DNA of 64,000 nucleotides, taken from contig NZ_CP045200.1 in NCBI RefSeq assembly GCF_018636735.1, positions 2,572,001 through 2,636,000 of the forward strand. Direction: 5' to 3'. The notes below the pieces were generated by a model. The model searched no databases. It was not told where the DNA came from and was given only the letters and a program-made list of their open reading frames with translations. This stretch comes from Erythrobacter sp. 3-20A1M. GTDB lineage: Bacteria > Pseudomonadota > Alphaproteobacteria > Sphingomonadales > Sphingomonadaceae. Below, one piece after another: positions 4,901 to 54,076 of the stretch. A program made the translations under genes and the position numbers. The stretch's first letter is position 1; each line of letters starts with the position of its first letter.

Positions 4901-4926
4901 GACGAACGCGCTGCTGGCGCATTACA
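4901..4926 (-). promoter_or_regulatory. ECF-type promoter of the phosphatase-GH65 operon
   Basis: On the minus strand it reads TGTAAT, 16 bases, CGTC. This is a perfect match to the recurrent TGTAA-N17-CGTC pattern of this window. It lies about 135 bases upstream of the start at 4766 and is divergent from the pfkB promoter. Confidence 0.75.
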
Positions 4927-5064
4927 CCGGTGCGCGCGCCGCTCGCTCCTGCGGTGGTCCTCCGGACGGGCAAGTTTGCGGCATGGGCCGGGGAGACGAC
5001 CGACGTATCGGCGCGGCTTTTCACCTGTCGGCGGTTCTCGAAAGGACCATGGGAGCGGCCCGCG

Positions 5065-5090
5065 CGTAACAAATCGGCATAAGCAACGTC
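5065..5090 (+). promoter_or_regulatory. ECF-type promoter of pfkB
   Basis: CGTAAC, 16 bases, CGTC. It differs from the window consensus TGTAA-N17-CGTC only at the first base and lies 123 bases upstream of the pfkB start codon. Confidence 0.65.
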
Positions 5091-5212
5091 TGTCGCACGA
5101 TGTCCGGCTCGAGATCACAGAAGACTTGCTACGCTGCCCTTGGCGGGCGGCGCTACCCGGTTGCTGTCCATCGGCCGGCATCGTGTCCAGGATAGCTGGG
5201 AGGAGCTGGCGA

Positions 5213-6154
5213 ATGAAGACGATTGTGACATTGACTCTGAATCCCTCGATTGACGGCTCTGCCGAGGCGGACTTGGTGCGACCGGTTCACAAGATCCGAA
5301 CGTCCGATGAACGCTATGACCCTGGAGGAGGCGGTATCAATGTGGCCCGGGTCATCCGGGAGCTGGGTGGCCCTGCACTTGCGATGTATCTGGCCGGCGG
5401 CGCGACCGGCAGTGTGCTCGACGACCTTCTCGAAACCGCATTGATTGCACACCGTCGTATACCGATCGAGGACCATACCCGCATCAGCCACGCAGTCTTT
5501 GAACGCTCGAGCGGCGAGGAATATCGCTTCGTCCCCGCGGGCCCGCTCGTGATGGAGTGGGAATGGCGCGCAATCCTGGAGGCCCTCGAAGATATCGATT
5601 GCGAATACCTCGTCGCCAGCGGCAGCTTGCCGCGTGCTGTTCCCGACGATTTCTATGAGACCGTAGCTGCCCTGGCGCACCGCAAGGGAATTCGACTGGT
5701 TCTCGATACGTCGGGAAGCGCGCTTCGTGCCGGGCTTGTTCGCGGCGTCCACCTGGTGAAGCCCAGCCTTGGCGAACTTGAGGCGCTGGCCGGACGCAGG
5801 CTCGCCGACGGCGCGGCACAAGAGGCGGCGGCCAGAGAGCTCATTGATGCTGGTTCGGCAGAGATGGTGGCGCTGACGCTTGGGCGCGACGGTGCGTTGC
5901 TCGTGACCGCTCAAGCCGCGATACGCCAGCCGGCGCTCGATGTGGTCGCAAAGAGCGCGGTCGGCGCTGGCGACAGCTTCGTCGCGGCGATGACACTCGC
6001 TTTGGCGCAGGGCCGTGATGAGCAAGATGCTTTCGCCTACGGCATGGCGGCAGGCGCTGCCGCCGTGTTGTCGCCTGGCACTGGCCTGTGTCGCCGCGAA
6101 GATGTCGAGCGGCTATATGGTGAACTGACCAGGCAAATCGCGCCTCGGCCGTGA
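5213..6154 (+). CDS. pfkB: 6-phosphofructokinase, PfkB (ribokinase) family
   Basis: 313 residues, normal for Pfk-2. It should phosphorylate fructose 6-phosphate (possibly tagatose 6-phosphate) with ATP. The N-terminus TLTLNPSIDGSAEADLV and the GGGINVARV substrate loop are the phosphofructokinase variant of the family. The catalytic signature VGAGDSFVAAM has its Asp near residue 253. ATG 5213 is chosen because GGGAGGAG stands 7-14 bases upstream; the frame runs open for another 380 bases upstream but without similarity. It is divergent from the trehalose-phosphatase operon and has its own ECF-type promoter at 5065-5090. It supplies the committed glycolytic step in the carbohydrate set of this window. 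Confidence 0.9.
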   Translation: MKTIVTLTLNPSIDGSAEADLVRPVHKIRTSDERYDPGGGGINVARVIRELGGPALAMYLAGGATGSVLDDLLETALIAHRRIPIEDHTRISHAVFERSSGEEYRFVPAGPLVMEWEWRAILEALEDIDCEYLVASGSLPRAVPDDFYETVAALAHRKGIRLVLDTSGSALRAGLVRGVHLVKPSLGELEALAGRRLADGAAQEAAARELIDAGSAEMVALTLGRDGALLVTAQAAIRQPALDVVAKSAVGAGDSFVAAMTLALAQGRDEQDAFAYGMAAGAAAVLSPGTGLCRREDVERLYGELTRQIAPRP

Positions 6155-6252
6155 GCGCACCGGAAAATCGAACAACGGGAACGGACAAACCAATCATTGC
6201 CGCTCGTTTGAGCGAACCCTGATGGGTGCCCGGTCGCCTTGGATGCGCGGCG

Positions 6253-6266
6253 TTGACATAGCTCAA
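6253..6266 (+). promoter_or_regulatory. FNR-type box
   Basis: TTGAC-ATAG-CTCAA is close to the FNR consensus TTGAT-N4-ATCAA, with one change per half-site. Transcription activated from position -41.5 would start near 6301, ahead of the small secreted protein and of ecf1. Confidence 0.55.
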
Positions 6267-6339
6267 TGCCGGCCGAGGCATTCGCGTGTCAGGTGCCCCA
6301 GATGGCGACCGGGCCATCGGATATGTCGGTGCCGCTTCA

Positions 6340-6705: not shown

Positions 6706-6750
6706 ATCCGGCTTTTCGCGGTGGGTATGCGCGGGTCCTTTGCGATCCGA

Positions 6751-6761: not shown

Positions 6762-6791
6762 TTTTGGTTTCCTCGGCATGGAGGCATTACT

Positions 6792-7451
6792 ATGCCAACC
6801 TTAACACATAACGGGTCATCCCGACCCTCGTCTGCACGCGGCGAGGACGCCGTCATCCAACGACTGACCGAATGCCGCGCCGAATTCATGCGGTACTTCC
6901 AACGGCGACTGAGCCGTTCCGAGGAAGCGGAGGATGCGTTTCAGGATTTCTGCGTCAAAGTCCTTCGGGCCGCCTGGGAACCGCAGGACAACGGGAAGGT
7001 GGACGCCTGGCTCCGACGCGTCCTGCGCAATTCGCTTATTGACCATTATCGGCGGCGCGCGGCGCGGCAGCGGGGCAGGGATGCCTATGAAGCCGAGCCC
7101 CGGGAAATGGCGGATACTCCCGAAACGGACTATGATGAAAATCCATGCACTTGCGTTCAGGACGCCTTGCCGGCGCTTCGCTCGGATTACGCCGAGATCA
7201 TCCGGCGCGTCGATCTCGAAGAAGAACCGCGAGAAACTATTGCGGCTGATCTCGGGCTCACGCCCAACAATATCGGAGTACGCCTGCACAGGGCGCGTCG
7301 GGCGATGAAGGATCAGATCGAAAAGCGCTGTTCCACCTGCCATTTCAGGAGCTCTGGCGACTGCGATTGCAGTCCCGTAACGCACGAGGCGCAGCGGAAC
7401 AGCGAACACGATGGTCTGAAAGGAGCTGCCATCGCGGCATCCTTCTTCTGA
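6792..7451 (+). CDS. ECF-type RNA polymerase sigma factor 1, with cysteine tail
   Basis: 219 residues. Region 2 is visible as EEAEDAFQDFCVKVLRAAW followed by WLRRVLRNSLIDHYRR. Region 4 covers LRSDYAEIIRRVDLEEEP and the helix-turn-helix IAADLGLTPNNIGVRLHRAR. A CxC (PCTC) precedes region 4, and the C-terminus has CSTC, seven residues, CDC. The same two cysteine motifs occur in the sigma factors at 8074 and 30638. No anti-sigma gene is adjacent. Start ATG 6792 has GGAGG 7 bases upstream. It is probably co-transcribed with the small exported protein from the FNR-type box at 6253. The C11 tract in its leader could vary expression. The family resembles metal-sensing CorE-type (ECF44-like) factors; this is inference. 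Confidence 0.85.
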   Translation: MPTLTHNGSSRPSSARGEDAVIQRLTECRAEFMRYFQRRLSRSEEAEDAFQDFCVKVLRAAWEPQDNGKVDAWLRRVLRNSLIDHYRRRAARQRGRDAYEAEPREMADTPETDYDENPCTCVQDALPALRSDYAEIIRRVDLEEEPRETIAADLGLTPNNIGVRLHRARRAMKDQIEKRCSTCHFRSSGDCDCSPVTHEAQRNSEHDGLKGAAIAASFF

Positions 7452-8026
7452 ATTGCGCGCCACCTGTTGTTCATTGTGCGAGACAGGAGAGGATTGGCGG
7501 CATGGCACGCCCTGGCTGGGCCAGGAAGGAGTGGAGTGATCTTTTGAATATCAAACGCCCACGCATCGTCAGAAGAGCAGTCAATCACATTGGGATTCGA
7601 GCCAAGATCACTTCGCCCAATGGATCAGACTGCTCCTCTGGCAAGCGCCGGTTCTCCTGATGGAGGGGTGATCCCCGGCAAGACGCGGTATCAGTGCGGG
7701 CGAAGGCGTTTTGGCAATGTCGAGGGCATTCCGGTCGTGCGGCTTGGATCGCGCGCCTGCTGTTCCTTGTGCACCGAAAGCGAGAATGCACTGCTTCTGC
7801 CACCAGCGAGCCCGAGGACGGTCCGATCGGTTGCGCCATGGCGCTGGGGCGAGACTTCGCAGCACCGATCGAATTTGCAGGTCCGCGGCTCAAGGGCCGC
7901 AGGGATGCGGCAGGTATATTCGTCGAAGCGCAGGTCCCTCAAAGGTCAGACAACGCAAGTTTTCGCTTTCGCTAAGGCGCACTTGCATCAAGCGAGGTCT
8001 GAAAAGCCTTTGTAGGCAGGCTTGGC
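7452..8026. other. Intergenic region between ecf1 and ecf2
   Basis: No supportable gene is seen on either strand; the open frames lack ribosome sites and similarity. A 15-base sequence at 7966-7980 (CTTTCGCTAAGGCGC) recurs exactly at 10221-10235 next to another ECF-type promoter. The right end holds the ecf2 promoter. Confidence 0.5.
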
Positions 8027-8052
8027 TGTAACAACCGCTAAGCCACTGCGTC
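8027..8052 (+). promoter_or_regulatory. ECF-type promoter of ecf2
   Basis: TGTAAC, 16 bases, CGTC, 22 bases before the TTG start of ecf2. It is a perfect match to the window consensus, suggesting autoregulation or control by a sibling sigma factor. Confidence 0.75.
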
Positions 8053-8073: not shown

Positions 8074-8721
8074 TTGACCCATGACGACCCATTGCCGGAT
8101 GATGATCCCGACATCGCCGCCCGGGCAGCGGATGCTGCAGTTCGCCGCGCGCTCGTCGAAGGGCACCGGCAGATTCTAGGTTTTCTTCGCCGGCGACTGG
8201 GCAGCGGGGAGGAGGCCGAGGAGGTCCTGCAGATGTTCATGCTGCGCGCTGTCGAGCGGTCTGCTGACCTGCGCGATGTGCGCAGCGTTCGTGGCTGGCT
8301 CAGCCGTATTCTCGCCACGACAATCGTTGATCACCAGCGTCGAGCCGGCAAACGGCGTAAACGGGAGGAAATCGTGGATCCCGTCGATCTCGAGCAACTG
8401 TCGATCGAACCGGATGACGAGCTCGAAGAGGCGATCTGCAATTGTCTTTACAAGCTCTTGCCGACTCTCAAGCCGGAATATGCCGAGGTGATCTGGCGCA
8501 TAGACTTGCTAGAAGAACCACGGGACCGGGTGGCGGCGAGCCTTGGTGTCAGTTTGAACAATATCACCGTCAGGCTGCATCGCGGTCGTCAGGCGCTCAA
8601 GAAGCGGCTGGAAGAAATGTGCATGACCTGTCCGGTTCATGGTTTCCTCGACTGTCGATGTGACGAGGCAGAGCGATGGCGCCGCCGCCGCGAGCAACTG
8701 GGCGGGCGCGCCGAGATATAG
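8074..8721 (+). CDS. ECF-type RNA polymerase sigma factor 2, with cysteine tail
   Basis: 215 residues from a TTG start with GGAG 7 bases upstream. The ATG at 8081 is out of frame. Region 2: SGEEAEEVLQMFMLRAVERS and WLSRILATTIVDHQRR. Region 4: LKPEYAEVIWRIDLLEEPRD and VAASLGVSLNNITVRLHRGR. A CNC pair stands just before region 4, and CMTC-x7-CRC ends the conserved part. It is about as long as its paralogues and closest to the factor at 30638. Its own promoter carries TGTAAC-N16-CGTC, so it is the best candidate for the sigma factor that reads the many identical promoters in this window. No adjacent anti-sigma factor is seen; the cysteines may sense metal or redox directly. Confidence 0.88.
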   Translation: MTHDDPLPDDDPDIAARAADAAVRRALVEGHRQILGFLRRRLGSGEEAEEVLQMFMLRAVERSADLRDVRSVRGWLSRILATTIVDHQRRAGKRRKREEIVDPVDLEQLSIEPDDELEEAICNCLYKLLPTLKPEYAEVIWRIDLLEEPRDRVAASLGVSLNNITVRLHRGRQALKKRLEEMCMTCPVHGFLDCRCDEAERWRRRREQLGGRAEI

Positions 8722-8789: not shown

Positions 8790-9533
8790 TTAGAAGCCTT
8801 CGCTGAGGTCCTCAAGCGCAGGCAGGTTGGAGAGATGGACGACGCCAGCTTCGCGAAGCTCTATGAACCCGTCCTTTTTCAGTTGGGTGAAGGTACGGCT
8901 TACGGTTTCTACCGTGAGACCGAGATAGTCGGCGATATCGGTGCGGGTCATGGGCGGTATGACAGGATCAGCCGTTCCTCCGGACCGCGCGGCGCGGCGG
9001 GATAGCATGAGGAGGAATGTGGAGACCCGTTCGCGCGCGGTCTTGCGGCCGAGCAGCACCATATGGTCCTGTGCGGCCGCAAGTTCGTTGGATGCTATCC
9101 CGAGAAGCCGCCGCTCGATGCCCGGAAAGTCCGTCAGCATGGCAGCGAACTGCTTGCGGGGGAATCGGCAACATCGCACCCGCGTGACTGCCTCTGCACT
9201 GCAGCCGTATCTTTCCAGGAAAGAGAGCCCGAGGAAGTCACCGGCAAACAGAAAACCGGTAATCTGTTGCCGGCCATCGGGTAACAGCTTGTAGACTTTT
9301 ACCGTACCGTCGGTGACATTGAAAAGGTGGTCTGCCGGGTCGCCTTCGGTCACGAAAATCTGATGCCGAGCAATGTCCTGCACGCTGGTAATCGCGGCAA
9401 GTCGGTCAAGATCGCAATCGTCGATCGCATCGCATACACTGAGGACGCGCGCGGCACATGCAGCGCAGGGTTCCGGCAAGAGCTCCTTTCCGGACGAGAG
9501 TGACTGTACTTGCTGTGCGCATGCGCTCTTCAT
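8790..9533 (-). CDS. fnr: Crp/Fnr-family regulator, FNR/FnrN type with iron-sulfur cysteines
   Basis: 247 residues. An oxygen-labile [4Fe-4S] cluster is expected on C23-x2-C26-x7-C34 together with C111, the FnrN arrangement. The cAMP-fold has EGDPADHLFNVTDGTVKVYK. The helix-turn-helix TRTDIADYLGLTVETVSRTF carries E..SR, the recognition residues for TTGAT-N4-ATCAA. It should act as a cytoplasmic dimer that activates genes under low oxygen. A matching box (TTGAGACACATCAA at 9569) sits in the divergent promoter shared with the next gene. At 36 bases from this start it could mediate autoregulation. A second box precedes the ecf1 unit, making this protein a plausible master switch for the sigma cascade. 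Confidence 0.9.
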   Translation of the reverse strand: MKSACAQQVQSLSSGKELLPEPCAACAARVLSVCDAIDDCDLDRLAAITSVQDIARHQIFVTEGDPADHLFNVTDGTVKVYKLLPDGRQQITGFLFAGDFLGLSFLERYGCSAEAVTRVRCCRFPRKQFAAMLTDFPGIERRLLGIASNELAAAQDHMVLLGRKTARERVSTFLLMLSRRAARSGGTADPVIPPMTRTDIADYLGLTVETVSRTFTQLKKDGFIELREAGVVHLSNLPALEDLSEGF

Positions 9534-9568: not shown

Positions 9569-9582
9569 TTGAGACACATCAA
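9569..9582 (+). promoter_or_regulatory. FNR-type box in divergent promoter
   Basis: TTGAG-ACAC-ATCAA, one base off the FNR consensus. Its centre is 41.5 bases upstream of a predicted start near 9617 for the rightward gene, with a TATCAA at 9604-9609 in the -10 place. For the leftward fnr gene it lies very close to the start codon, which fits repression. Confidence 0.65.
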
Positions 9583-9632: not shown

Positions 9633-10193
9633 ATGACGCACGAGATGAATTTCGGGAATCCGATCAGCGTCGCCCCGCTCCGGAGCACGCAAATCGGCCA
9701 GGCGTTTCCTCTTGTCCGAGAAGTCGCACCCATTTTGATGTTCGAGCAATGGATCCGGATTGCCAGTCCCCTGACATTGGAAGATAAATTCGACAGACGC
9801 GGAATTCTCGCAGCGACAGTCGCTTCTGGCCACCTTTATGGGCTGTGCCTGTACCGAGTCGAACCACTTAAGAGTCCCAAGCCCCTTGTAGCACATTATC
9901 TCGCCACGTTCGGCATCGGTCAGCAGGCGCCGGTCGCCCGGTCTCTGGTCGCTGCCATTGACAGCCTCGCGTTCCGACTTGGCTGCGAGATCATACAGAC
10001 CAGCGTTGCCTCATCACAGCGGAGCGTTCGCGCCTGTCTCGAGGCGGCCGGTCATCGTATCCGTCAGGTGGAATTTTCCAAGTATATTGGAGACGCGGAG
10101 GATAACCAAATGCCGGCACGATACACCGATCTATCATGGCTCGAACAGTGGCACCGGGGCGACGATATTTCCTCCGCGGCAAAGCGAGGATAA
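9633..10193 (+). CDS. GNAT-like acyltransferase domain protein
   Basis: 186 residues with the general shape of a GNAT N-acetyltransferase: mixed strands in the first half, LVAAIDSLAFRLGCEIIQTSV in the position of the acetyl-CoA helix, and a C-terminal RACLEAAGHRIRQVEFSKYI like the last helix and strand of the fold. I cannot name a substrate. The start ATG has GGAG about 8 bases upstream. It is divergent from fnr and placed for class II activation by the box at 9569-9582, so it is probably induced under low oxygen. The assignment to GNAT is by overall pattern only. Confidence 0.55.
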   Translation: MTHEMNFGNPISVAPLRSTQIGQAFPLVREVAPILMFEQWIRIASPLTLEDKFDRRGILAATVASGHLYGLCLYRVEPLKSPKPLVAHYLATFGIGQQAPVARSLVAAIDSLAFRLGCEIIQTSVASSQRSVRACLEAAGHRIRQVEFSKYIGDAEDNQMPARYTDLSWLEQWHRGDDISSAAKRG

Positions 10194-10238: not shown

Positions 10239-10264
10239 TGTAACAATGCCGGTGCTCGCGCGTC
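10239..10264 (+). promoter_or_regulatory. ECF-type promoter upstream of the ubiB-like/gap operon
   Basis: TGTAAC, 16 bases, CGTC: a perfect match. It lies 70 bases before a small ORF at 10334 and 425 bases before the UbiB-like gene. A 15-mer shared with the ecf2 promoter region ends 4 bases upstream (10221-10235). Confidence 0.7.
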
Positions 10265-14410: not shown

Positions 14411-15418
14411 TTACCGTTCCCCAACCAGATTACGCGGCTCGCCGCGCCCGAACGCCTCGATATTCTCCACGGTGGTTTCGATGATCCGCCGAACGGCGCT
14501 TTGCGTATTATAGGCATTATGGGGCGTCACAATCACGTTCGGGAACCGCAGCAAGACGTGATTGGCGACGAGCGCCTTGAGGTCGTAGCCATCGCTCGAC
14601 GCTCCCCGAAAAATCTGCGCCTCCTCGCGCACGAGAGGCTCCTGTGGCAATACGTCAAGTCCCGCCGCCCGAACCTTGCCGTCCGCCAGAGCTCGTACCA
14701 GCGCAGGCACATCGACAACGTTGCCCCGCGCAGTGTTGATCAGGAGTGCGCCGGACTTCATCAGGTCGAATTCACGGTCGGAAAGTAGACTCGCGGTTCC
14801 CGGCGTTGCCGGTACGTGGAGCGTGATTACATCCGCATCTGCGAGAACTTCATCTAAATCGGCATAGCGAAACCCGAATTGTGTTGCCGCGTCTTCATCC
14901 GGATAGAGATCGTAGGCCACAACATCCATGCCGAATCCGCCAGCGATCTCGATCGCGCGGCGGCCTATTCGTCCGGTTCCGATGACGCCGAGCGTCTTGC
15001 CGCGCAGTTCGAAACCGCGCAGCCCGGCTTGCGAGAAGTCACCGCGGCGTGTGCGCTCCACCGCCTCGACCAGATTGCGGGCGACGGCCAGGAGCAGGGC
15101 GAAGGCATGCTCCGCCACGGTCGAATCGCCATAATCGGGTACGTTCGCCACCGCGACGCCGTGCGCCTTGCACCAGTCCAAATCGACATGATCGTATCCG
15201 GTAGACCGGGTTGCGATCAGCTTTAGACGCGGGAACTGAACCAGCACGTCGGCACCGAGCTGCGAGTTCACGAAGGTGCTTACAATTTCTGCGGAAGCGT
15301 AGGGCGCGGCCGTTTGTGGGTCGAGGCGCTCGCGGGTGCATTCGACCTCATGCTCGGGTTCAAGCCTCAGACAGGCCTGGTGTTCCCACTCTTCCGTCTC
15401 GAACACGACGACCTTCAT
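14411..15418 (-). CDS. D-lactate dehydrogenase-like D-2-hydroxyacid dehydrogenase
   Basis: 335 residues, the usual size. It should reduce pyruvate to D-lactate with NADH. The Rossmann motif is GVIGTGRIGRRAIEIAGGFG, and the catalytic triad of the family is visible: Arg in NTARGNVVD, Glu in LPQEPL, and His in TPHNAYNT. The N-terminal VFETEEWE and the YDHVDLDWCKAHGVAV region resemble fermentative D-LDHs. Its start overlaps the end of ppsA by 4 bases (ATGA), so it is the second gene of a ppsA-ldh operon driven from the ECF-type promoter at 17980. With the lactate permease at 41 kb it suggests lactate as an end product or a substrate. Confidence 0.87.
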   Translation of the reverse strand: MKVVVFETEEWEHQACLRLEPEHEVECTRERLDPQTAAPYASAEIVSTFVNSQLGADVLVQFPRLKLIATRSTGYDHVDLDWCKAHGVAVANVPDYGDSTVAEHAFALLLAVARNLVEAVERTRRGDFSQAGLRGFELRGKTLGVIGTGRIGRRAIEIAGGFGMDVVAYDLYPDEDAATQFGFRYADLDEVLADADVITLHVPATPGTASLLSDREFDLMKSGALLINTARGNVVDVPALVRALADGKVRAAGLDVLPQEPLVREEAQIFRGASSDGYDLKALVANHVLLRFPNVIVTPHNAYNTQSAVRRIIETTVENIEAFGRGEPRNLVGER

Positions 15419-17840
15419 CGAGAAGTGTCCGGCTCGGAGGTTGTTCGCGCCGGCGCGGCCTTCAGACTCTGCTCGACTTGGGCAACGTTGCGAAGCGTAG
15501 AGACGAAGCTGTCCGGGTTGAGCGAGATCGAATTGATGCCTTCTTCAACCAGAAACGCGGCGTATTCGGGATAGTTGCTGGGGGCCTGGCCGCAGATCCC
15601 GATCTTGATGCCGGCGGCGTGCGCCTGGACGATCGCTGCGCGAATCGCACGCTTTACCGCTTCATTGCGCTCATCGAACAGGGGGGCGAGATCGCCCGAA
15701 TCCCGATCGACCCCGAGCACGAGCTGCGTGAGGTCGTTGGAACCAATCGAAAAGCCGTCGAAGCGCTGCGCGAACTCTTCGGCAAGGAAGACGTTGGCGG
15801 GAATCTCGCACATCATGTAGACCTCGAGGCCGTCCCGGCCGCGCTCGAGTCCGTTCTCTTTCATCACGGCAAGCACGCGATCAGCCTCCTCGAGCGTGCG
15901 GCAGAATGGCACCATGACGATCACGTTCTCCAGACCGATCCTTTCGCGCACCGTCTTCAGCCACGGCATTCCAGTGCAAAACCCTCGCGATAGCGCGCGT
16001 CGTAGTAGCGCGAAGCACCGCGCCATCCGAGCATCGGATTCTCCTCTTCCGGTTCGAAAACGCTGCCGCCGAGGAGGTGGGCATATTCATTGGATTTGAA
16101 GTCGCTCAAGCGAACGATCACGGGGTGCGGGTGGTAGGGCGCTGCGAGCTTGGCAATTCCCAGCGCGAGCGTCTCGACGAAGAAGTCCACTGGGTCATCG
16201 TAGCCGCGCGTGCGCTGGCGGATCTCTCGCCGCGCCGCTGGATCGGTCACGTGGTCGGGATGGATCAGCGCCATCGGATGGATCTTGATCAGATTGTTGA
16301 TGATGAACTCCATCCGCGCAAGGCCAACTCCGCGCGCAGGCAGGCGCCACCAGCGGAATGCTGCGGCAGGGCTGGCGATATTCACCATCATCGCGGTTCG
16401 GGTTTCGGGCAGGTCGGAAACATCCACCTGCGATGACTCGAATTCCAGGATGCCTTCGTAGACCACGCCCCGATCACCTTCCGCGCAGGAAAGCGTGATT
16501 TCCTGCCCGTCAAGCAGCAGTTCGGTGCCGCGGCCCGTGCCGACGATGGCGGGCACTCCCAGTTCGCGGCTGACGATGGCGGCGTGGCTGGTCGTGCCGC
16601 CATGATCGGTGATGATTCCGGCGGCCTTCTTCATGATCGGGACCCAGTCGGGGTCCGTCATGCCGGTCACGAGGATGGCTCCGTCGCGGAAGGTGTCGAT
16701 GTCGGCGGCGCTGCGAATGGCGCAGACTTGACCTGAGGCAATCGCTTCACCGATCGCCGAGCCGGTGATGATCGGCTTTCCCTTCGTCTTCAGGCGGTAG
16801 CTCTTGATTTGGCCGGTTTGCCGGGACGACTGCACCGTCTCGGGCCGCGCCTGAACCATGTAGAGTTCGCCGGTCTCTCCGTCCTTGGCCCATTCCATGT
16901 CCATCGGCCGGCCGTAGTGTTCCTCGATCGTCGCGGCCCATCGGCCGAGCTCCAGAATTTCCGCTTCGCTGAGAACGAAGGCCTGGCGCTCCTTCTGGGT
17001 GGTTGCAACTGTCGTGGTGCGCTCGCTCCCGCCGGTCGCGTAGATCATCTTGGTCTCTTTGGCGCCGAGCGTCTTCTCGATGATCGGGGTGTAGCGCCGG
17101 TCGTCGAGCAAGGGCTTGAAGACGAGATATTTGTCGGGATCGACCGCGCCCTGCACGACGGTTTCGCCAAGACCCCATGCGGCGCTGATCACGGCGACGC
17201 CGGGAAATCCGGTTTCCGTATCGATCGAAAACATGACTCCCGAGCCTGCCAGGTCGGAGCGTACCATCCGCTGGACGCCGATCGACAGCGCGACTTCCAG
17301 ATGATCGAACCCCTGGGTTTCACGGTAGCTGATCGCCCGGTCGGTAAACAGCGAGGCGTAGCACCGCCGGCAGGCGTCGAGCAGCGCGCGCTCACCGCGC
17401 ACATTGAGAAAGGTTTCCTGCTGACCGGCGAAGCTCGCCTGGGGCAAGTCTTCAGCAGTTGCGCTAGAGCGCACAGCAACACTGATCTCGTCCTGGCCGC
17501 TGCGGCGGGAAAGCTCGCGATATGCGTCCCGGATTTCTGTGGCGATCGCCTCCGGGAATTCTCCGTCGAGAAAATGCCGGCGGATTGTTTCACCCGTTTC
17601 ATGCAACGAGGCCTTTTCACTCTTCAATGCCGCAATGCTGGCGCGTAGCTCCGGCTCGATTTCGTTGGCAGCCACATATTCGCGAAAGGCCGCGGCGGTC
17701 GTCGCGAAGCCGCCCGGCACACGCACGCCCTTCTCCTTGAGTGTGCGTACCATCTCACCAAGCGAGGCGTTCTTGCCGCCGACGATGGGAACGTCGCCCA
17801 CGTTCAGGGACTCAAACCAGGCTATGCGTTTTTCCGTCAT
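15415..17840 (-). pseudogene. ppsA: Phosphoenolpyruvate synthase with a single-base frameshift
   Basis: The first part (start 17840, AAGGAG upstream) gives 627 residues containing the ATP-grasp end (VAVRSSATAEDLPQASFAGQ) and the phosphohistidine domain (GGTTSHAAIVSRELGVPAIV). It stops at 15957 just after REGFALECR. The next frame continues without loss at LKTVRERIGLENVIVMVPFC and carries the active-site Cys in GICGQAPSNYPEYA. Restoring one base near 15961 gives an 808-residue protein of normal PpsA length. As it stands the PEP/pyruvate-binding domain is separated, so the product would be inactive. The enzyme normally interconverts pyruvate + ATP and PEP + AMP + Pi. It is either a real mutation or a sequencing slip; the downstream ldh remains coupled. 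Confidence 0.88.
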
Positions 17841-17979: not shown

Positions 17980-18005
17980 GACGCAGGGCAGCACCCGATC
18001 TTACA
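17980..18005 (-). promoter_or_regulatory. ECF-type promoter of ppsA-ldh
   Basis: On the minus strand it reads TGTAAG, 16 bases, CGTC: a perfect match to TGTAA-N17-CGTC, about 140 bases upstream of the ppsA start. Confidence 0.72.
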
Positions 18006-21042: not shown

Positions 21043-21068
21043 GACGCGCGGCGGCTCCCCAAATTACA
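21043..21068 (-). promoter_or_regulatory. ECF-type promoter of DUF2933-methyltransferase
   Basis: On the minus strand it reads TGTAAT, 16 bases, CGTC: a perfect match, 68 bases upstream of the DUF2933 start. Confidence 0.73.
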
Positions 21069-22423: not shown

Positions 22424-22450
22424 GACGTTCTTCAATCCGCGATTCTTACA
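22424..22450 (-). promoter_or_regulatory. ECF-like promoter, spacing one base longer
   Basis: On the minus strand it reads TGTAAG, 17 bases, CGTC. The sequence around it matches the universal stress protein promoter at 54051 (TTGTTGT-TTTGACGTT in plus orientation), so the two may be duplicates. The only ORF in reach is the 53-residue one at 22341. Confidence 0.5.
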
Positions 22451-22698: not shown

Positions 22699-22723
22699 TG
22701 TAAGATTTCAATTTCGGCGCGTC
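22699..22723 (+). promoter_or_regulatory. ECF-like promoter, spacing one base shorter
   Basis: TGTAAG, 15 bases, CGTC, 120 bases upstream of the exported protein at 22843. Confidence 0.45.
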
Positions 22724-23479: not shown

Positions 23480-23505
23480 TGTAATTCACCGGAGGCTCAA
23501 ACGTC
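23480..23505 (+). promoter_or_regulatory. ECF-type promoter of Bax-inhibitor-like gene
   Basis: TGTAAT, 16 bases, CGTC: a perfect match, 60 bases upstream of the start at 23566. Read-through could also cover the aldolase gene. Confidence 0.75.
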
Positions 23506-26155: not shown

Positions 26156-26159
26156 ACTG

Positions 26160-28529: not shown

Positions 28530-28800
28530 CTCCGAACCAGCGCCTTGCGAGGCGGTGCAGGGGGACGAGGAGGGCCGCTGCCCAAAAACCGTAGATCAAG
28601 GACCAAAACAGACCCGCGAGAACACCGCCGAGTGTCAGCCATTCAAACCCGGGGAGCCAGGGCGACCAGGCGCGGTGCATTTCGAATCCGGAAGGAAGGG
28701 CCAAACCGTAAAGGATACAGGCAATAAGACTGATCATCAGGAACAGGCTGAAAGCCGTGCCCCAGACGAGGATCGCGCGGGGAATGGGCAATTGCGTCAT
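28516..28800 (-). CDS. DUF5676 small membrane protein
   Basis: 94 residues with two hydrophobic segments ([20 protein letters not shown] and [20 protein letters not shown]). It matches the small membrane proteins commonly placed ahead of copper ATPases. ATG 28800 is chosen because similarity starts there; it has GGAGC upstream. It overlaps the ATPase start and is first in the leftward copper operon. Confidence 0.8.
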
Positions 28801-30637: not shown

Positions 30638-31288
30638 ATGGATGATGATCCTGCCACTTCGGCCGCTGCCTGCGACGATGCCTTGAGGCCGATGGACGAA
30701 GCCGTCCGACGGGCGCTGGTGGACAGTCATCAGGACATTCTCAAATTCCTGAATCGGCGTCTCCTCAGTTCCCACGAAGCGGAGGAGGTTCTGCAGCGCT
30801 TCATGCTCCGGGCGATCGAGCGCGCCGGAGACCTTCGCGAGGCAAAGTCGGTCAAAGGTTGGCTTTCGCGCGTTCTGGCAACGACGATTGCCGATTTCCA
30901 GCGGACTGTCATCCGACGGCGCAGCAAGGAGATCGGTGTCGATCCGCATGAGCTTGCCGAGAGCAGCCATGCGCACACGCAACCAGAGGTGGATCTTGAC
31001 CAGGCAGTGTGCAATTGCCTTTACCGGCTCCTGCCGACGTTGCAACCCGACTATGCGGAGGTCATCTGGCGCGCCGATTTGCTCGAAGAGCCTCGGGACG
31101 ACATCGCGAAAAGTCTCGACACGACGGTCAACAATGTGACCGTCAGGTTGCACCGCGCACGCCGTGCGCTGAAAACCCGACTCCTGCAGATGTGCCGCAC
31201 GTGCATCGAGCATGGCTTTCTCGATTGTGAATGTGCCCCTGCAGAGTCCTCGCTTCGAGCCAATGTGGAAGGGTCCTCGGCTGATTAG
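30638..31288 (+). CDS. ECF-type RNA polymerase sigma factor 3, with cysteine tail
   Basis: 216 residues from ATG 30638. Region 2: SSHEAEEVLQRFMLRAIERA and WLSRVLATTIADFQR. Region 4: LQPDYAEVIWRADLLEEPRD and IAKSLDTTVNNVTVRLHRAR. CNC precedes region 4, and CRTC-x7-CEC follows it, as in the factors at 6792 and 8074. It is most similar to the 8074 factor. No anti-sigma factor is adjacent, and no TGTAA-N17-CGTC promoter was found upstream, so its transcription is controlled differently. Confidence 0.86.
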   Translation: MDDDPATSAAACDDALRPMDEAVRRALVDSHQDILKFLNRRLLSSHEAEEVLQRFMLRAIERAGDLREAKSVKGWLSRVLATTIADFQRTVIRRRSKEIGVDPHELAESSHAHTQPEVDLDQAVCNCLYRLLPTLQPDYAEVIWRADLLEEPRDDIAKSLDTTVNNVTVRLHRARRALKTRLLQMCRTCIEHGFLDCECAPAESSLRANVEGSSAD

Positions 31289-34015: not shown

Positions 34016-34032
34016 CTGAGGACCGCTCGCTC

Positions 34033-35448: not shown

Positions 35449-35474
35449 GACGCGCTCGCTCGACTGTAATTACA
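35449..35474 (-). promoter_or_regulatory. ECF-type promoter of nuclease-phosphorylase-prs operon
   Basis: On the minus strand it reads TGTAAT, 16 bases, CGTC, ending 52 bases before the start at 35397. Perfect match. Confidence 0.75.
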
Positions 35475-37980: not shown

Positions 37981-38052
37981 AACAACCTCCAGAAGATTCT
38001 TCGTTCTCTCGTCCGGCAGCGTACACTGCGGATTCATTGCTCGCTTGGCAAA

Positions 38053-38078
38053 GACGCTTGAACACCGAGGGAATTACA
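38053..38078 (-). promoter_or_regulatory. ECF-type promoter of the CPD-type ATPase
   Basis: On the minus strand it reads TGTAAT, 16 bases, CGTC. Perfect match; it gives a leader of about 65 bases to the TTG start at 37980. Confidence 0.74.
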
Positions 38079-38151
38079 CCGTGAGTTCGGATTCGCTCTT
38101 TCACGGTATCGCGGCGCAACCAATTGGCTCGCCGCGTCGCTCGGGATCGGT

Positions 38152-39879
38152 TCAAACGGTGCGCGCCGCGAACAGATCGTTGCGGCGCTCATTGACGATG
38201 GCACGTGCAGCTTCCTCGGGGAAGCCGATGCCGGTCAGGAGTTCTTCGCACAATTGCAGACTAGCCTCAACGGTGTCGGGTACCGTCCCCGATGCACCGA
38301 GTGCTTGCAGCCGGCGTGCATGCTCCGCATCTCGGGCTCTTGCGTAAATGGGCACATGCGGCCAGAGCTGGTGAACCGCGCCGACAACATGCTCGGCACT
38401 CCCGGGCGCATCCATAGTGGTCACGAACGCCGCAGCGCGCTCGATACCAAGATGCGGAAGAAGATCCGGCTGACTTGCATCGCCAAAGACAACCGGCATT
38501 CCCTTCGCACGCTGACGTGCGATGACTTCGGCATCGGTATCGAGCGCGACATAACTGATGCGCTGAGCGTCTAGCAGATCAGCCAGAAGATGCCCAACCC
38601 GGCCGAAGCCGCCGATAATCACATGGGCTTCCCCTGTAATCCCGAGGTCGGCAGGTACGAGGGTGCCATTCTCCCGCTTCTCTAAAAATCGGCCCAGCAG
38701 GCGGCCGGCGGCGGAAAGGGCCGGGGTGAGAAACATCGTCAAGATAACCACCATAAGCATGAACTGACCGACAGTTGGGTCCAGCACGCCGACCGCAAGC
38801 CCGGCAGCGAGGATGACGAATGCAAATTCGCCGCCTTGGCAGAGCAGGACCGCAGTCTCCGCAGCGACGGCTGTGGGCTGCCGGAACGCTTTCGAAACCA
38901 CGAACAGGGTCCCAGCTTTGAGTGCGACGAGGCCAATCACTGAAAGTACGACCCAGCCTAGCAACTGCCAGACGGCACTCACGTCAAGGCTCATGCCGAC
39001 GGACATGAAGAAGAGGCCCAGGAGTAGGCCCTTGAAGGGCTCGATATCACTGGCCACCTGGTGGCGGTACTCGGTGTCTGCGAACAGCAGCCCAGCAAGA
39101 AATGCGCCGAGGGCCATCGAAAGGCCCGCCTGTGCCGTGAGTGCAGCGGTTCCAAGCACAATCAGCAGGACGGCGGCCATAAACACTTCGCGGCTGCCGC
39201 TGCCGCCGACGAACCGCAACAGCGGCCGTATAGCAATGCGTCCGACGGCCAGAATGGCGGCGATAATGATAGCAGCCTGAAGGATCGCCCGTGTAGCGGC
39301 TCCGGCCAGCGACTCGCTACCTTCTGCGCCAGCCACGCCTACGAGAAAGAGGACGGGGACGACGGCGAGGTCTTGAAACAGGAGGATACCGAACGCTGTG
39401 CGCCCGAACCGGGTGCCAAGACGCCCTGTCTCAGTCAAACTCTGCATGACGAGCGCGGTGGATGATAATGCCAGACAGAGCCCCAAAATCGCGGATGCGA
39501 TCATGGAGTTGCCGAAGGCGTAGGCGATCGCCCCGATGATGGCAGCGGATGCGCAGACTTGCCCGGTGCCAAGACCGAAAACGATCCGTCGCATCCCCCA
39601 CAATTGCCTCGTCGAGAGTTCAAGGCCGATCATGAACAGCAGAAAGATTATGCCGAGCTCAGCGACGCGACGGACACCGTCGACATCCGCGATAACCACA
39701 TAGGCGAGCAGTGGCACATCCACGACAATGCGGTTGAGACCGTGCGGGCCAATCAAAAGGCCGGCAAATAGAAATCCGAGGACAGAGCTGATGCCGAGTT
39801 TACGGACGGTCGGGATCACCAATCCGGCAGCCGCGAGGAAAACAAAAATTTCCCTCAAGTGGGGAATTTCGTGATCCAA
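38152..39879 (-). CDS. CPA2-family K+/H+ antiporter with TrkA-N domain (KefB-like)
   Basis: 575 residues from TTG 39879 with AAAGG 9 bases upstream. Twelve to thirteen membrane segments carry the Kef/CPA2 signatures GFLFAGLLIGPHGL, ELGIIFLLFMIGLELS, SSTALVMQSL and FGILLFQDLAVVP. The cytosolic part has a Rossmann TrkA-N domain (VIIGGFGRVGHLLADLLDAQ, then VFGDASQPDLLPHLG) that binds NAD(H) and gates transport. Such proteins protect against electrophiles and adjust cytoplasmic pH. No ECF-type promoter was found upstream. Confidence 0.92.
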   Translation of the reverse strand: MDHEIPHLREIFVFLAAAGLVIPTVRKLGISSVLGFLFAGLLIGPHGLNRIVVDVPLLAYVVIADVDGVRRVAELGIIFLLFMIGLELSTRQLWGMRRIVFGLGTGQVCASAAIIGAIAYAFGNSMIASAILGLCLALSSTALVMQSLTETGRLGTRFGRTAFGILLFQDLAVVPVLFLVGVAGAEGSESLAGAATRAILQAAIIIAAILAVGRIAIRPLLRFVGGSGSREVFMAAVLLIVLGTAALTAQAGLSMALGAFLAGLLFADTEYRHQVASDIEPFKGLLLGLFFMSVGMSLDVSAVWQLLGWVVLSVIGLVALKAGTLFVVSKAFRQPTAVAAETAVLLCQGGEFAFVILAAGLAVGVLDPTVGQFMLMVVILTMFLTPALSAAGRLLGRFLEKRENGTLVPADLGITGEAHVIIGGFGRVGHLLADLLDAQRISYVALDTDAEVIARQRAKGMPVVFGDASQPDLLPHLGIERAAAFVTTMDAPGSAEHVVGAVHQLWPHVPIYARARDAEHARRLQALGASGTVPDTVEASLQLCEELLTGIGFPEEAARAIVNERRNDLFAARTV

Positions 39880-41010: not shown

Positions 41011-41036
41011 TGTAATACGTATGCGTACCAAGCGTC
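41011..41036 (+). promoter_or_regulatory. ECF-type promoter of lactate permease
   Basis: TGTAAT, 16 bases, CGTC. Perfect match. The -10 element lies downstream of the first in-frame ATG (41021), so translation must begin later than that. Confidence 0.75.
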
Positions 41037-43645: not shown

Positions 43646-43671
43646 GACGCGTGCAGGGCACAGGAATTACA
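43646..43671 (-). promoter_or_regulatory. ECF-type promoter of plsC
   Basis: On the minus strand it reads TGTAAT, 16 bases, CGTC, then 7 bases and ATG. Perfect match. Confidence 0.74.
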
Positions 43672-46204: not shown

Positions 46205-46230
46205 TGTAAGAAGTCGCGCATCGAATCGTC
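46205..46230 (+). promoter_or_regulatory. ECF-type promoter of cardiolipin synthase
   Basis: TGTAAG, 16 bases, CGTC. Perfect match, 307 bases before the cls start. The 300 bases between show no supportable gene. Confidence 0.7.
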
Positions 46231-48357: not shown

Positions 48358-48383
48358 TGTAATAGATCGCCTTTGGCGGCGTC
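48358..48383 (+). promoter_or_regulatory. ECF-type promoter of cfa-GH130
   Basis: TGTAAT, 16 bases, CGTC. Perfect match, 33 bases before the cfa start. Confidence 0.76.
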
Positions 48384-48416: not shown

Positions 48417-49744
48417 ATGCGCAAATCCAAACAAGTCCATGCCGTACTTGGCCGGCGTTTGCTCACGATTCTGGCTCCGTTGCTTCGACGGCTCGTCAAA
48501 CGGGGCGAACTCGTGCTGATCGACGCCGCGGGCAACCGGATGACTTTCGGCACGCCGCAGGATAGTCCGCGAGTGATCGTACGGCTGCACAGGCTTGACC
48601 TTCCGCTGCGCCTGCTCATCAATCCCTCGCTGACGCTTGGCGAAGCCTACATGAAGGGAGAATGGACGATCGAGGAAGGCACGCTGCGCGACTTCCTGTT
48701 TGTTGTCTCATCGAACCTGACGCGCTCGATGAAGCGCCTTTGGCGCGCCTGCGCGCGAAGCTGGGGCGTTTGGCGCATGTCCTGCGGCCCATCCGCAAGG
48801 CCAAGGCCAAAGCGAACGTTGCGCACCATTACGACCTTTCGAGCGGGCTCTATGAAATGTTCCTCGACGAGGATTGGCAATATTCCTGCGCCTATTTTGG
48901 CGAGGATTGTGACACGCTCGAAGACGCGCAGGCTGCCAAACGTTCGCACATTGCAAAGAAGCTCCTGCCCGAACCGAGGCACCGGGTCCTCGATATTGGT
49001 TGCGGGTGGGGCGGACTAGCGATCGAGCTGGCACAGAACTGCGATGCGCAGGTGACGGGGATCACCCTCTCGGAGGAACAGCATCGCCGCGCTGGGGTCC
49101 GCGCCCGCGAGCAGGGCGTCGATGATCGCGCAGCCTTCAAACTGGCCGATTACCGCGAAATCGACGAGCAATTCGATCGCATTGTGTCGGTGGGAATGTT
49201 TGAGCATGTCGGTGCGGCGAGCTTCGGTACCTTTTTCGAGGCGATCAAGCAGAACCTGGCGCCGCGCGGAATAGCCGTCGTACATTCGATCGGCCGCATG
49301 GAACCGCCTGGCGGGCGCGACCCGTGGATCGACAAGTACATCTTTCCGGACGGCTATGTTCCCGCCCTGTCGGAAACACTCGCGGCCATCGAGCGCAGCG
49401 GCCTTTGGGTGACCGATATCGAAATATTGCGCCTCCATTACGCAGAGACGCTGCGCCACTGGTACGAGAGATTCCAGGAGCGGCGCGCCGCGGCGCACGC
49501 ACTTTACGACGAACGCTTCTGTCGGATGTGGGAATATTATCTCGCTGCCTGTGAGATGATGTTCCGCAATGGAACCCTGATGGTGTTCCAGGTGCAGCTT
49601 GCCAAGGAGCGCGACGCCGTTCCCCTGACGCGCGACTATCTCTATTCCGATCGGCGGAAGGGGCATCCGCACTGGGCGGATGAGGCGCTCAACGAGCGCG
49701 TCGAAGCCGAAGCCGTCCCGTTGCGCGTGGGCGAATGCGTATGA
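48417..49744 (+). pseudogene. cfa: Cyclopropane-fatty-acyl-phospholipid synthase with a single-base frameshift
   Basis: The frame from ATG 48417 (GGGAG upstream) gives a normal CFA N-terminus (PSLTLGEAYMKGEWTIEEGT, then FLFVVSSNL) and loses similarity after about residue 105. The shifted frame resumes with LARLRAKLGRLAHVLRPIRK and then NVAHHYDLSSGLYEMFLDED, VLDIGCGWGGLAIELAQ, GITLSEEQ, the catalytic EHVGAASFGTFF region and RMWEYYLAACEMMFR. Total length is one base short of a whole number of codons, so one base appears lost near 48725-48745. The enzyme would use SAM to make cyclopropane fatty acids for stress-resistant membranes. A shorter product from an internal start is conceivable but would lack the N-terminal domain. 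Confidence 0.87.
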
Positions 49745-52189: not shown

Positions 52190-52240
52190 AGTGGCTGGCA
52201 AGATTGATAATAGGGCACTGCGCTGCTCAATTCGGCTTAT

Positions 52241-53080
52241 TCAACGGGACGACACCCAGAGGCCCTCAGTCACCTTGCTGCCCGGATAGGCAACGAGCAG
52301 TTCGCCATTGTAGTCGAGGGAATGCTGCTCATCGGCCAGCCATGCCTGGCCCGGCTCCACGGGGGCATCACCTATACGTCCGTGTCCTGAAAGCGGTACA
52401 ATCCATGCCGCTGTGCCGGGCGCGAGTGTACCGGCGCGAGCGCCGCTCCATTGCTCGACCACGAATTTATGTCCTTCGGCGACTATCCGGCGAGCATCGG
52501 CAAGAACGTATGGTTGTGTGAGAGCCTGCCAGGGTTCGGGGCGTGCCACGCGCAGCGCTGCTTCCAAATGGAGGGCGCGCGGACGGCCATAATCGTACAT
52601 CCTGTAGGTAAGATCGACATTTTGCTGGATCTCGATGAGGGTAATTCCCGCACCGATCGCGTGGATGGTTCCTGCGGGCAGATAGTAGACGTCGCCGGGG
52701 CTCACCTCGCGCCAGTCAAGCATCGTCTCTATGGTTCCATCGAGCGCTGCGAGGCGCAGGGTGTCGATGGCGACAGCTGCCTTCAGCCCCAGGCCGATCT
52801 GCGCACCCGGCTCAGCCTTCAGGATCACCCAGCATTCGTCTTTGCCCCTCGGATGTCCGAGCGCTCGCGCTTCGGCATCGTCTGGATGGACCTGGACAGA
52901 GAGCCGCTCGCTCGTGAACAGGTATTTGACAAGAAGGGCGCCCGAGCGGTGGTCGGGTTCTTCGAACCAGATTTCACCGATCGGATCGTCGCCGCTTGCT
53001 GCCTGCGCAAATCCGAAGCCAGGCTGACGGCGACCCCAGACCTTGGCCACCGAGCGGGGAACGAGCTGGACAGGGGTCAT
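52241..53080 (-). CDS. manA: Mannose-6-phosphate isomerase, class I
   Basis: 279 residues, the short bacterial type. It interconverts fructose 6-phosphate and mannose 6-phosphate. Zinc and active-site pattern: LSVQVHPDDAEARALGHPRG, KDECWVILKAEPGA, SPGDVYYLPAGTIHAIGAGI and LIEIQQNVDLTYRMYDYGRP. AGGGAGG stands 9 bases before the ATG. It follows the universal stress protein gene by 87 bases and probably shares its ECF-type promoter at 54051. Confidence 0.9.
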   Translation of the reverse strand: MTPVQLVPRSVAKVWGRRQPGFGFAQAASGDDPIGEIWFEEPDHRSGALLVKYLFTSERLSVQVHPDDAEARALGHPRGKDECWVILKAEPGAQIGLGLKAAVAIDTLRLAALDGTIETMLDWREVSPGDVYYLPAGTIHAIGAGITLIEIQQNVDLTYRMYDYGRPRALHLEAALRVARPEPWQALTQPYVLADARRIVAEGHKFVVEQWSGARAGTLAPGTAAWIVPLSGHGRIGDAPVEPGQAWLADEQHSLDYNGELLVAYPGSKVTEGLWVSSR

Positions 53081-53167
53081 TGCCGACGCCTCCCTTGACT
53101 ACCCCTTGCTTGAGGGGCTGGTAAGGAGAAACCATGTGCATATCGCGGGGCCCGTACGCCGAACATA

Positions 53168-53983
53168 TCAGTGCGCGAGAATCAGCGGAACGGGGCTCGT
53201 CGTGATAAGATCCTGGGTGACGCCGCCCAGAAAAGTTTCGCGGAGTCGTGAATGGCCATAGGCACCGAGCACGATATATTTCGCTTCGAGACTCGCTGCG
53301 GCCGCAATGAGCGCATTGGCCACGGTGTCTCCGTCGAGCGGCCAATCATGACTTTCGGCGGTGACACCATATCGCGCCAGATAATTGCGGACATCGTCCA
53401 AAGAAGGTTTCTCCCCCTTCTCGCTGACACTTACGATATGCAATTTGGGCGCGGCGCGCAGAAGCGAACGGCTCTGCCGGATGGCGTTGGCAGCTTCTGG
53501 GGAGCCATTCCAGGCGATCATGGCAGCACTGCTGTTGGTAAAGCGTTGCCCGGCAGCCGGCACGAGTAGTACGGGCGATTGAACATGGAGCGCCACGTCG
53601 GCGGCGAGTGGCGCCCTGCGCGGGAGAATTGTTTCCTTCTCTTCGGGTTGGCTTAGAACGACGAGGTCGGCAAACTTCGCGTGTTCGATGATGGTCTGAG
53701 CCGCTGATCCCTCGGCGTGAAGCCATTGCCAATCGATTCCCTCCCGTTTGAGCGTATCTTCGATCCGCACCTGTTCAAGTTTCTCGTTTTGGCGAAAAGT
53801 CTCGAAGATGCCGGAAGGAACGTATGACCCTCCAAACGGATCGCCGACAAAGAAATACGCATCGAGAGGGGTTGCCTGCAAACAGATCAGCTGCCCGTTG
53901 TGGGCGCGAACGACTTCCATGGCAGCAGCTAACCGTGCACCCTGGCCAGGATCCTGGTTTATGTGGAGCAAAACCGACTTCAA
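53168..53983 (-). CDS. Tandem universal stress protein (UspA family)
   Basis: 271 residues from TTG 53983 (AGGA 7 bases upstream); an alternative TTG at 54007 lacks a ribosome site. Two Usp domains: the first starts SVLLHINQDPGQGARLAAAM and includes DLVVLSQPEEKE; the second ends with the ATP-binding-like VLGAYGHSRLRETFLGGVTQ and SPVPLILAH. Such double-Usp proteins accumulate under hypoxia or stationary phase. It is driven by a perfect ECF-type promoter; a weaker FNR-like half-box (TTGCGCTGGATCAA at 54013) lies beside it. Confidence 0.88.
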   Translation of the reverse strand: MKSVLLHINQDPGQGARLAAAMEVVRAHNGQLICLQATPLDAYFFVGDPFGGSYVPSGIFETFRQNEKLEQVRIEDTLKREGIDWQWLHAEGSAAQTIIEHAKFADLVVLSQPEEKETILPRRAPLAADVALHVQSPVLLVPAAGQRFTNSSAAMIAWNGSPEAANAIRQSRSLLRAAPKLHIVSVSEKGEKPSLDDVRNYLARYGVTAESHDWPLDGDTVANALIAAAASLEAKYIVLGAYGHSRLRETFLGGVTQDLITTSPVPLILAH

Positions 53984-54050
53984 CTGATCATCCTGGTCCG
54001 GTTGCAATCGAGCGCTTGCGCTGGATCAAAAAGCACTCATTGTTGTCTTT

Positions 54051-54076
54051 GACGTTTCACTCGATCCGATCTTACA
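54051..54076 (-). promoter_or_regulatory. ECF-type promoter of usp-manA
   Basis: On the minus strand it reads TGTAAG, 16 bases, CGTC, 67 bases before the usp start. Perfect match; the surroundings resemble the site at 22424. Confidence 0.74.

Follow-up and report, generated by a model that had tools for sequence, protein, structure and literature searches.

The window, as we call the whole stretch of 64,000 nucleotides analysed here (Erythrobacter sp. 3-20A1M, contig NZ_CP045200.1, positions 2,572,001 to 2,636,000), carries three genes for CorE-like extracytoplasmic function (ECF) sigma factors, named A, B and C, each ending in a cysteine-rich domain (CRD), and 13 exact copies of the motif TGTAA-N17-CGTC, a candidate ECF promoter. 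A mapped gene starts 22 to 425 bp ahead of every copy. Six exact sites precede otsB/GH65, an AarF-GAPDH-CBS set, ppsA, Bax-inhibitor and fructose-bisphosphate (FBP) aldolase genes, an L-lactate permease, and a cyclopropane-fatty-acyl-phospholipid (CFA) synthase with GH130. The remainder precede sigma B, DUF2933/ICMT genes, an operon for a beta-CASP hydrolase, AMP phosphorylase and phosphoribosyl pyrophosphate (PRPP) synthase, a heavy-metal ATPase, an acyltransferase, cardiolipin synthase and a universal stress protein, and variant sites precede PfkB, enolase, a glycosyltransferase and a hypothetical gene. An earlier note, made from the letters of the window, had placed the motif in front of most operons. 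That wording is generous: many operons have an exact site in front, but others do not, among them sigma A, sigma C, the first P-type ATPase cluster (25524-28800) and an Fnr-like gene.

Dinucleotide shuffles of the window produced a mean of 0.15 copies and never more than 1. With both halves kept exact, spacer N17 gave the 13 matches, N12 gave 2, N16 and N18 gave one each, and N13-N15 and N19-N23 gave none. Twelve of the 13 sites lie outside the 44 mapped genes, where the non-coding share of positions 1-55648 is 18% (binomial P ~1e-8). When one mismatch was allowed, N17 returned 22 sites in 1-55648, 17 of them outside genes, compared with 5 to 9 sites, 0 to 4 outside genes, for each of the other spacers N12-N22. 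Chance or base composition as the source of the motif is ruled out by the shuffles, the spacer controls and the whole-genome counts given below. Three further NGTAA-N17-CGTC matches (2681+, 29779+ and 32165-) fall within genes and look like background. All 13 exact copies of the earlier note were recovered at the coordinates and strands it gave, and its first-base variants (5065+, 18123+, 46135-), spacing variants (22424- with N18, 22699+ with N16) and site with a -35 mismatch (55612-) are real; the scan pattern it offered has 16 Ns and should have 17. Its description of all sites as intergenic holds for the exact sites except 38053-, which falls inside the upstream NAD(P)-binding gene, at that gene's 3' end. 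The earlier note made an exception only of the site at 22424 as not pointing at a clear gene start; 22699+ too has lost its original gene.

The host contig (C1; 3,116,220 bp) contains 20 exact matches, of which 14 are confined to C1:2563312-C1:2626076, a single island of 63 kb; the 14th copy (C1:2563312) sits 8.7 kb to the left of the window. Among the other 295 genomes scanned in the same order only one has more than 20 matches (24, in a genome of 7.0 Mb). Since nearly all related genomes have 20 or fewer, the six copies outside the island fit the background, and the genome-wide scan that the earlier note had suggested speaks for that note, with 14 of 20 matches in 62.8 kb and the remaining genome at the level of its relatives. 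A crude test of overlap with open reading frames did not discriminate and was not used: all six outside sites and six of the 14 island sites lie under open reading frames of at least 215 codons in some frame. As the host genome has no such sites beyond background, the module appears to carry its own transcription specificity between replicons.

The same confinement bears on the idea that a sigma factor of the host reads the sites as its promoters, be it the EcfG general stress factor, an ECF16-type SigF or the ECF encoded at C1:2647536, with the island sigmas as bystanders. The host genome has 12 sigma-70 region-2 matches in total. The EcfG promoter motif is GGAAC-N16/17-CGTT, and the window contains one EcfG-type site against 0.8 expected. 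The consensus of ECF16 (BcrS of Brucella), (T/C)GTAAC-N17-CGAA, has the same -35 element and spacing as the island motif (PMC8315932), and appears to be the nearest published consensus among the literature searched; its -10 element is CGAA instead of CGTC, and ECF16-type sites (GTAAC-N17-CGAA) number zero in the window. A host sigma would, moreover, have sites genome-wide, yet outside the island there are only the six background matches, and the motif accompanies CRD sigmas in different orders and even in Nitrospirota. A host-wide sigma was rejected on the ground that the motif is confined to the island, and we consider a reading by any host factor very unlikely.

Positions 1 to ~55,648 of the window match plasmid pCME4A9II of Croceicoccus marinus (NZ_CP019604.1, hereafter CP019604) at 96-98% over most of the length and at 83-94% at 19.7-22.8 kb. 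Plasmid plas1 of OT19 (NZ_CP060053.1) also matches this block, which is therefore plasmid-borne in those two cases and part of a contig the size of a chromosome here. To the left another 8.1 kb, with the 14th site in it, match CP019604 at 91%, as do 3.5 kb on the right at 81%. No match to a phage-type integrase was found within the window, the nearest being at C1:2526049.

Table 1. Motif sites and ECF sigma factor genes of the window (window coordinates; distances are to the start of the gene named)
Feature	Position	Strand	Genes served and remarks
Exact site	4901..4926	-	135 bp before otsB, then GH65; otsB in Indioceanicola also preceded by a site (L022 39905-)
Variant site, CGTAA	5065..5090	+	123 bp before PfkB-type kinase; Indioceanicola PfkB has an exact site (L111 19254-)
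ECF sigma A, CorE-like	6792..7451	+	CTC linker, C-x2-C-x7-C-x-C
Exact site	8027..8052	+	22 bp before sigma B (putative autoregulation)
ECF sigma B, CorE-like	8074..8721	+	CNC linker, CRD Cys183/186/194/196
Exact site	10239..10264	+	425 bp before annotated AarF/UbiB start (longer open reading frame from 10386), then GAPDH, CBS genes
Exact site	17980..18005	-	140 bp before ppsA (frameshifted here); Indioceanicola ppsA also has a site (L022 25292-)
Variant site, GGTAA	18123..18148	+	221 bp before enolase
Exact site	21043..21068	-	113 bp before DUF2933 / ICMT genes
N18 site, orphan	22424..22450	-	N17 in CP019604, before ATP-synthase operon; atpD absent here and in OT19
N16 site	22699..22723	+	N17 in both Croceicoccus plasmids, which retain the SPFH gene absent here
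Exact site	23480..23505	+	154 bp before Bax-inhibitor-1 gene, then FBP aldolase
ECF sigma C, CorE-like	30641..31288	+	no site found just upstream
Exact site	35449..35474	-	52 bp before operon of metallo-beta-lactamase (MBL)/beta-CASP hydrolase, AMP/thymidine phosphorylase and PRPP synthase
Exact site	38053..38078	-	within 3' end of upstream gene; 73 bp before heavy-metal P-type ATPase
Exact site	41011..41036	+	63 bp before L-lactate permease
Exact site	43646..43671	-	212 bp before lysophospholipid acyltransferase
Variant site, CGTAA	46135..46160	-	86 bp before glycosyltransferase, then HAD hydrolase
Exact site	46205..46230	+	307 bp before cardiolipin synthase
Exact site	48358..48383	+	34 bp before CFA synthase (frameshifted here), then GH130
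Exact site	54051..54076	-	68 bp before universal stress protein, then mannose-6-P isomerase
Variant site, TGAAA	55612..55637	-	before hypothetical 54306-55574; near edge of homology to Croceicoccus plasmid

Sigma B and sigma C of the window are 59% identical, and A and B 35%. Both B and C match Pfam Sigma70_r2 and r4_2 and possess only the sigma2 and sigma4 regions of an ECF factor; sigma A scores over the cut-off for Sigma70_r2, and its region 4 is visible in the alignment only. The linker contains a CxC motif (CNC in B and C, CTC in A) and all three proteins end in C-x2-C-x7-C-x-C. The six cysteines concerned, C122, C124, C183, C186, C194 and C196 in sigma B numbering, are invariant across 13 aligned sigma factors. 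The last four are spaced as Cys181, 184, 192 and 194 of CorE, described as the four absolutely conserved cysteines of CRD sigmas (PMC3107203), and a review gives the CxC linker and the CRD as features of the class (PMC8999054). An equivalent of Cys189, the extra cysteine that dominates the activation of CorE by copper, is absent from all three window sigmas in the alignment and present in the Manganitrophus sigma (L107). The window sigmas have CMTCP, CRTCI and CSTCH in place of the CorE2 pair Cys173-Cys174, the extra cysteine of CorE2 for Cd/Zn specificity thus being missing (CorE and CorE2 residues from PMC9023288); CC pairs occur in relatives of the A type. A tree of 34 rows splits 29 CRD sigmas from five other ECFs with a support of 100/98, the long Klebsiella branch making that side unsure. 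No neighbour of the sigma genes is annotated as an anti-sigma factor in CP019604, and the hypothetical protein at 9633-10193 has no Pfam match, other hypothetical neighbours not all having been searched. A structure of sigma B predicted from the single sequence was poor (predicted local distance difference test score 61.7, below 50 in the cysteine region) and was not used.

We searched a collection of genome contigs with the sigma alignment, which returned 40 loci, 29 of them with homologs of at least 60% identity. These homologs belong mostly to alpha-proteobacteria, with two metagenome bins labelled Porticoccus (gamma) and Acidimicrobiaceae, for which a binning error is possible. With the Croceicoccus-like loci set aside, the remaining 25 of the 29 (467,694 bp) contain 106 copies of the motif at N17, comprising 54 distinct 26-mers, and 0 to 6 copies at each of the other spacers N8-N27, while the 11 weak sigma relatives (137,137 bp) have none at N17. 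CRD sigmas of the B or A type are encoded in 12 plasmid stretches, seven of them on plasmids typed as conjugative, and all 12 contain the motif. The N17 counts are eight in Indioceanicola (and six, uncounted, in an overlapping stretch), six in Roseovarius AK1035, four in Sulfitobacter, two each in Phenylobacterium (with two more at N18), Roseibium, R. indicus and Manganitrophus (Nitrospirota), and one each in Rhizobium, Ancylobacter, Pseudorhizobium, Dinoroseobacter and Hoeflea. On the Nitrospirota plasmid, whose sigma is 43% identical, the two sites form a tandem that separates the sigma gene from copper genes. From a sample of 398 Pseudomonadota genomes stretches were taken around the best matches only, and these yielded 17 N17 matches in six CRD-sigma stretches from five genomes, whereas 13 stretches around related ECFs without a CRD (243,613 bp) yielded one.

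Pooling 43 stretches around CRD sigmas (951,043 bp) gave 154 matches at N17 against a mean of 2.3 for each other spacer N8-N27. After TGTAA-N17 no tetramer is as frequent as CGTC (154; next 14), and before N17-CGTC no pentamer is as frequent as TGTAA (154; next 121). Forty-two of the 43 hold their own sigma with CxC and CRD; L149 holds none, adjoins L148 on the same contig and contributes three of the 154 matches. Left out of the pool were the Croceicoccus-like loci L066, L067, L089, L090, L021, L023, L175 and L176, the stretch L022 (overlapping L111; six matches), L037 and L038 (one match each), L152 (a partial sigma at a contig end with no CRD seen; no matches) and L174 (a control; no matches). 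Eight stretches (213,110 bp) that carry P-type ATPase, AMP-phosphorylase or ppsA cargo and no CRD sigma have no copy of the motif.

Several features of the sites suggest that they are functional. A site lies within 250 bp upstream of 25 of the 29 sigma homologs of at least 60% identity, in one case at N18; the four homologs without one are L069, L092 and two orthologs of sigma C, L089 and L090. Among 88 non-redundant sites the bases outside the search pattern are biased, with A never following TGTAA (0/88), G preceding CGTC in 59 and T following it in 58. When the 13 window sites were compared with each of the two Croceicoccus plasmids, all 117 motif bases were unchanged, while differences were seen at 8 and 10 of the 221 bases in the spacers and at 98 and 124 of the 2,600 bases flanking the sites. 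In CP019604 the equivalents of both off-spacing sites are exact at N17, the first preceding an F-type ATP-synthase operon and the second an SPFH gene. Neither atpD nor SPFH is matched in the window, where the spacers are N18 and N16; OT19 lacks atpD, its first site being N18 with CGTT, but retains SPFH with its second site at N17. Intact spacing thus accompanies the presence of the target gene in six of six cases (two sites, three replicons). Some caution is due here, as frameshifts in four other genes imply that single-base indels of this assembly may partly be sequencing errors.

These properties also bear on whether the motif might be the operator of a DNA-binding regulator, or a repeat belonging to the mobile element, and no promoter at all. 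It is regularly repeated on mobile DNA, and an Fnr/FixK-like regulator adjoins sigma B. The motif is, however, asymmetric and oriented to the gene start, the spacers share little sequence, the spacing and the -10-like CGTC(T) resemble those of ECF promoters, and cargo lacking the sigma lacks the motif. FNR-like boxes with one mismatch are only weakly above chance in the window (10 against 4.7, a number reached by 3 of 100 shuffles), on which ground an FNR-box regulon was rejected. We regard an operator or repeat as extremely unlikely.

The same targets recur across differently arranged islands, as assigned by eye from annotation tables and site coordinates. A site precedes CFA synthase in Croceicoccus, Roseovarius and Sulfitobacter, and at N18 in Phenylobacterium, where further sites precede phosphoketolase and a stress protein. 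The MBL/AMP-phosphorylase/PRPP operon is served via a DUF5676 gene in Roseovarius and Sulfitobacter, and P-type ATPases in Roseovarius (with arginine-deiminase genes after the ATPase) and Indioceanicola. Sites before ppsA and otsB are common to Croceicoccus and Indioceanicola, and Indioceanicola has one before PfkB; the lactate permease has its site in Croceicoccus and, at N18, in Indioceanicola. An ordinary copper-efflux CorE regulon beside metabolic genes with non-functional sites could be imagined, given that the known CorE regulon of Myxococcus xanthus consists of copper genes (PMC3107203) and that copper or heavy-metal ATPases are found in most annotated islands examined. The recurrence of sites before non-metal genes (ppsA, otsB, lactate permease, CFA synthase, phosphoketolase) in differently arranged islands argues against this explanation, as does the position of a metal ATPase directly behind only one of the 13 exact window sites, and it appears improbable. 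The theme of the regulon would be metal export combined with a carbon and energy supply independent of respiration and with membrane repair.

Judged from the sequences, TGTAA-N17-CGTC is very probably the -35/-10 promoter of CorE-like ECF sigmas, and the window would hold most of a mobile regulon in which sigmas A, B and C are among the operons served. Sigma B would be the main reader of this code, which A and C may share, and the signal is presumably a metal. The claim of the earlier note that a dedicated ECF regulon is clustered in one island is supported by the whole-genome counts, the co-occurrence of sigma and motif, the spacer controls, the cargo controls and the sites upstream of the sigma genes, and the island probably works as a self-contained unit. 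By analogy with CorE, and with no anti-sigma partner, a metal or thiol-reactive signal could engage the four-cysteine C-terminal domain and the CxC linker of sigma B and activate it by a conformational change. Active sigma B would then direct RNA polymerase to the 13-14 promoters of the island, its own among them, which would create positive feedback. The output raised would comprise metal export, enzymes of trehalose/glucan use and lower glycolysis, lactate uptake, nucleotide recycling, cardiolipin and cyclopropane lipids, and stress proteins. Sigma A and sigma C, being without an exact upstream site, may feed into these promoters either constitutively or under the control of the host.

Several points weigh against a promoter code read by the island sigmas. 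Two of the three window sigmas, A and C, have no exact site upstream. Many of the loci are related plasmids, so the 154 matches are not independent (88 are non-redundant overall). The size of the regulon varies, with a single N17 site in each of the CRD-sigma plasmid stretches L108, L169, L170, L172 and L173, and genome G224, whose sigma is 64% identical, has six matches genome-wide, which equals background. The signal may be something other than copper, since the cysteine most important for the activation of CorE by copper is missing. Finally, four genes of the island are frameshifted relative to the CP019604 proteins (ppsA, 15415-17840; NAD(P)-binding, 37961-38622; cation:H+ antiporter, 38579-39879; CFA synthase, 48417-49744), which may reflect either decay of the island or indels in the assembly.

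Like the window sigmas, CorE and CorE2 of M. xanthus (former ECF44, now in ECF238) have CxC in the sigma2-sigma4 linker followed by C-x2-C-x7-C-x-C; as far as annotation goes, an anti-sigma is lacking beside both. Metal-export genes are among their targets, as among the predicted ones here, and CorE shows partial autoregulation. The CorE promoter is described as having an AAC-containing -35 element and a conserved G in the -10 element, 16-18 bases apart (PMC3107203). For CorE four promoters were defined, the case of copA being less clear, and not one of another 13 predicted sites gained acceptance (PMC3107203), whereas here 13-14 promoters are predicted, most of them before metabolic and envelope genes, on mobile DNA. 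The same paper, from 2011, lists CRD sigmas of Roseovarius, Phenylobacterium zucineum and Candidatus Nitrospira (PMC3107203), and a 2021 review counts two members of the class as studied experimentally (PMC8103513). The sigma class is thus published, and the description of the regulon as largely undescribed applies to the promoter code and its metabolic scope: neither was found in the literature searched, although the CorE logo (Fig. S3), the CorE2 paper or the 2021 ECF reclassification may contain the code. CnrH of Cupriavidus metallidurans is likewise a plasmid-borne, metal-linked ECF moving with its targets (PMC9045368), but it is held under a linked CnrYX complex and serves the cnr genes, whereas the island has a broad target set and no annotated anti-sigma beside its sigmas. 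SigN of the Bacillus subtilis plasmid pBS32 is also a plasmid-encoded alternative sigma, one tied to DNA damage and cell death and not to a metabolic or metal regulon (PMC6751061).

The Cupriavidus study names travelling with their own sigma as one route by which acquired genes come to be expressed (PMC9045368), and the island would be a large example, a natural case of horizontally moved operons that bears on the expression of newly arrived genes in a new host. It offers a promoter code open to testing for the CorE-like class and suggests that such sigmas can govern a large plasmid metabolic regulon and not just a few copper genes. More tentatively, and with somewhat less than even confidence, the island may be a mobile element with a privately transcribed second set of genes for central carbon and energy metabolism. 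One code, conserved from alpha-proteobacteria to Nitrospirota, would then be shared by several CorE-like sigmas that differ in their cysteine sensors. In any recipient host the element could thereby start a survival programme insulated from that host, comprising glycolysis, the use of glucan and trehalose, energy from lactate or arginine, remodelling of lipids and export of metals, on a new and not simply copper signal.

Some minor observations concern the same DNA. Between positions 21900 and 22900 the window bears a deletion scar, in which atpD (ATP-synthase operon) and the SPFH gene of CP019604 are missing and two orphan promoters with altered spacers are left. In the annotation of CP019604 sigma A (window 6792-7463) is hidden by an antisense 'hypothetical protein' called over the gene. 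The Fnr/FixK-like gene next to sigma B (8790-9533) has an FNR-like box with one mismatch upstream at 9569, and on the Rhizobium, Ancylobacter and Pseudorhizobium plasmids, too, the sigma has Crp/Fnr genes no more than a few kb away. A TGATC-N16..18-CGTA pattern occurs five times in the window against 0.8 expected, scattered and with variable spacing. Two relatives with large genomes, L153 and L154, have the CRD variants CVVCLEESFWECRC and CTDCVEESFFDCRC, with only one and two N17 sites nearby. The beta-CASP/RMMBL hydrolase, AMP/thymidine phosphorylase and PRPP synthase operon (31554-35397) has metal ATPases nearby on several plasmids, whether these carry CRD sigmas or not. The further ECF at C1:2647536, 11.5 kb to the right of the window and outside the motif cluster, is 70% identical to an ECF of CP019604 that is annotated beside a periplasmic heavy-metal sensor and copper-oxidase genes, and a similar cluster is found in Aurantiacibacter.

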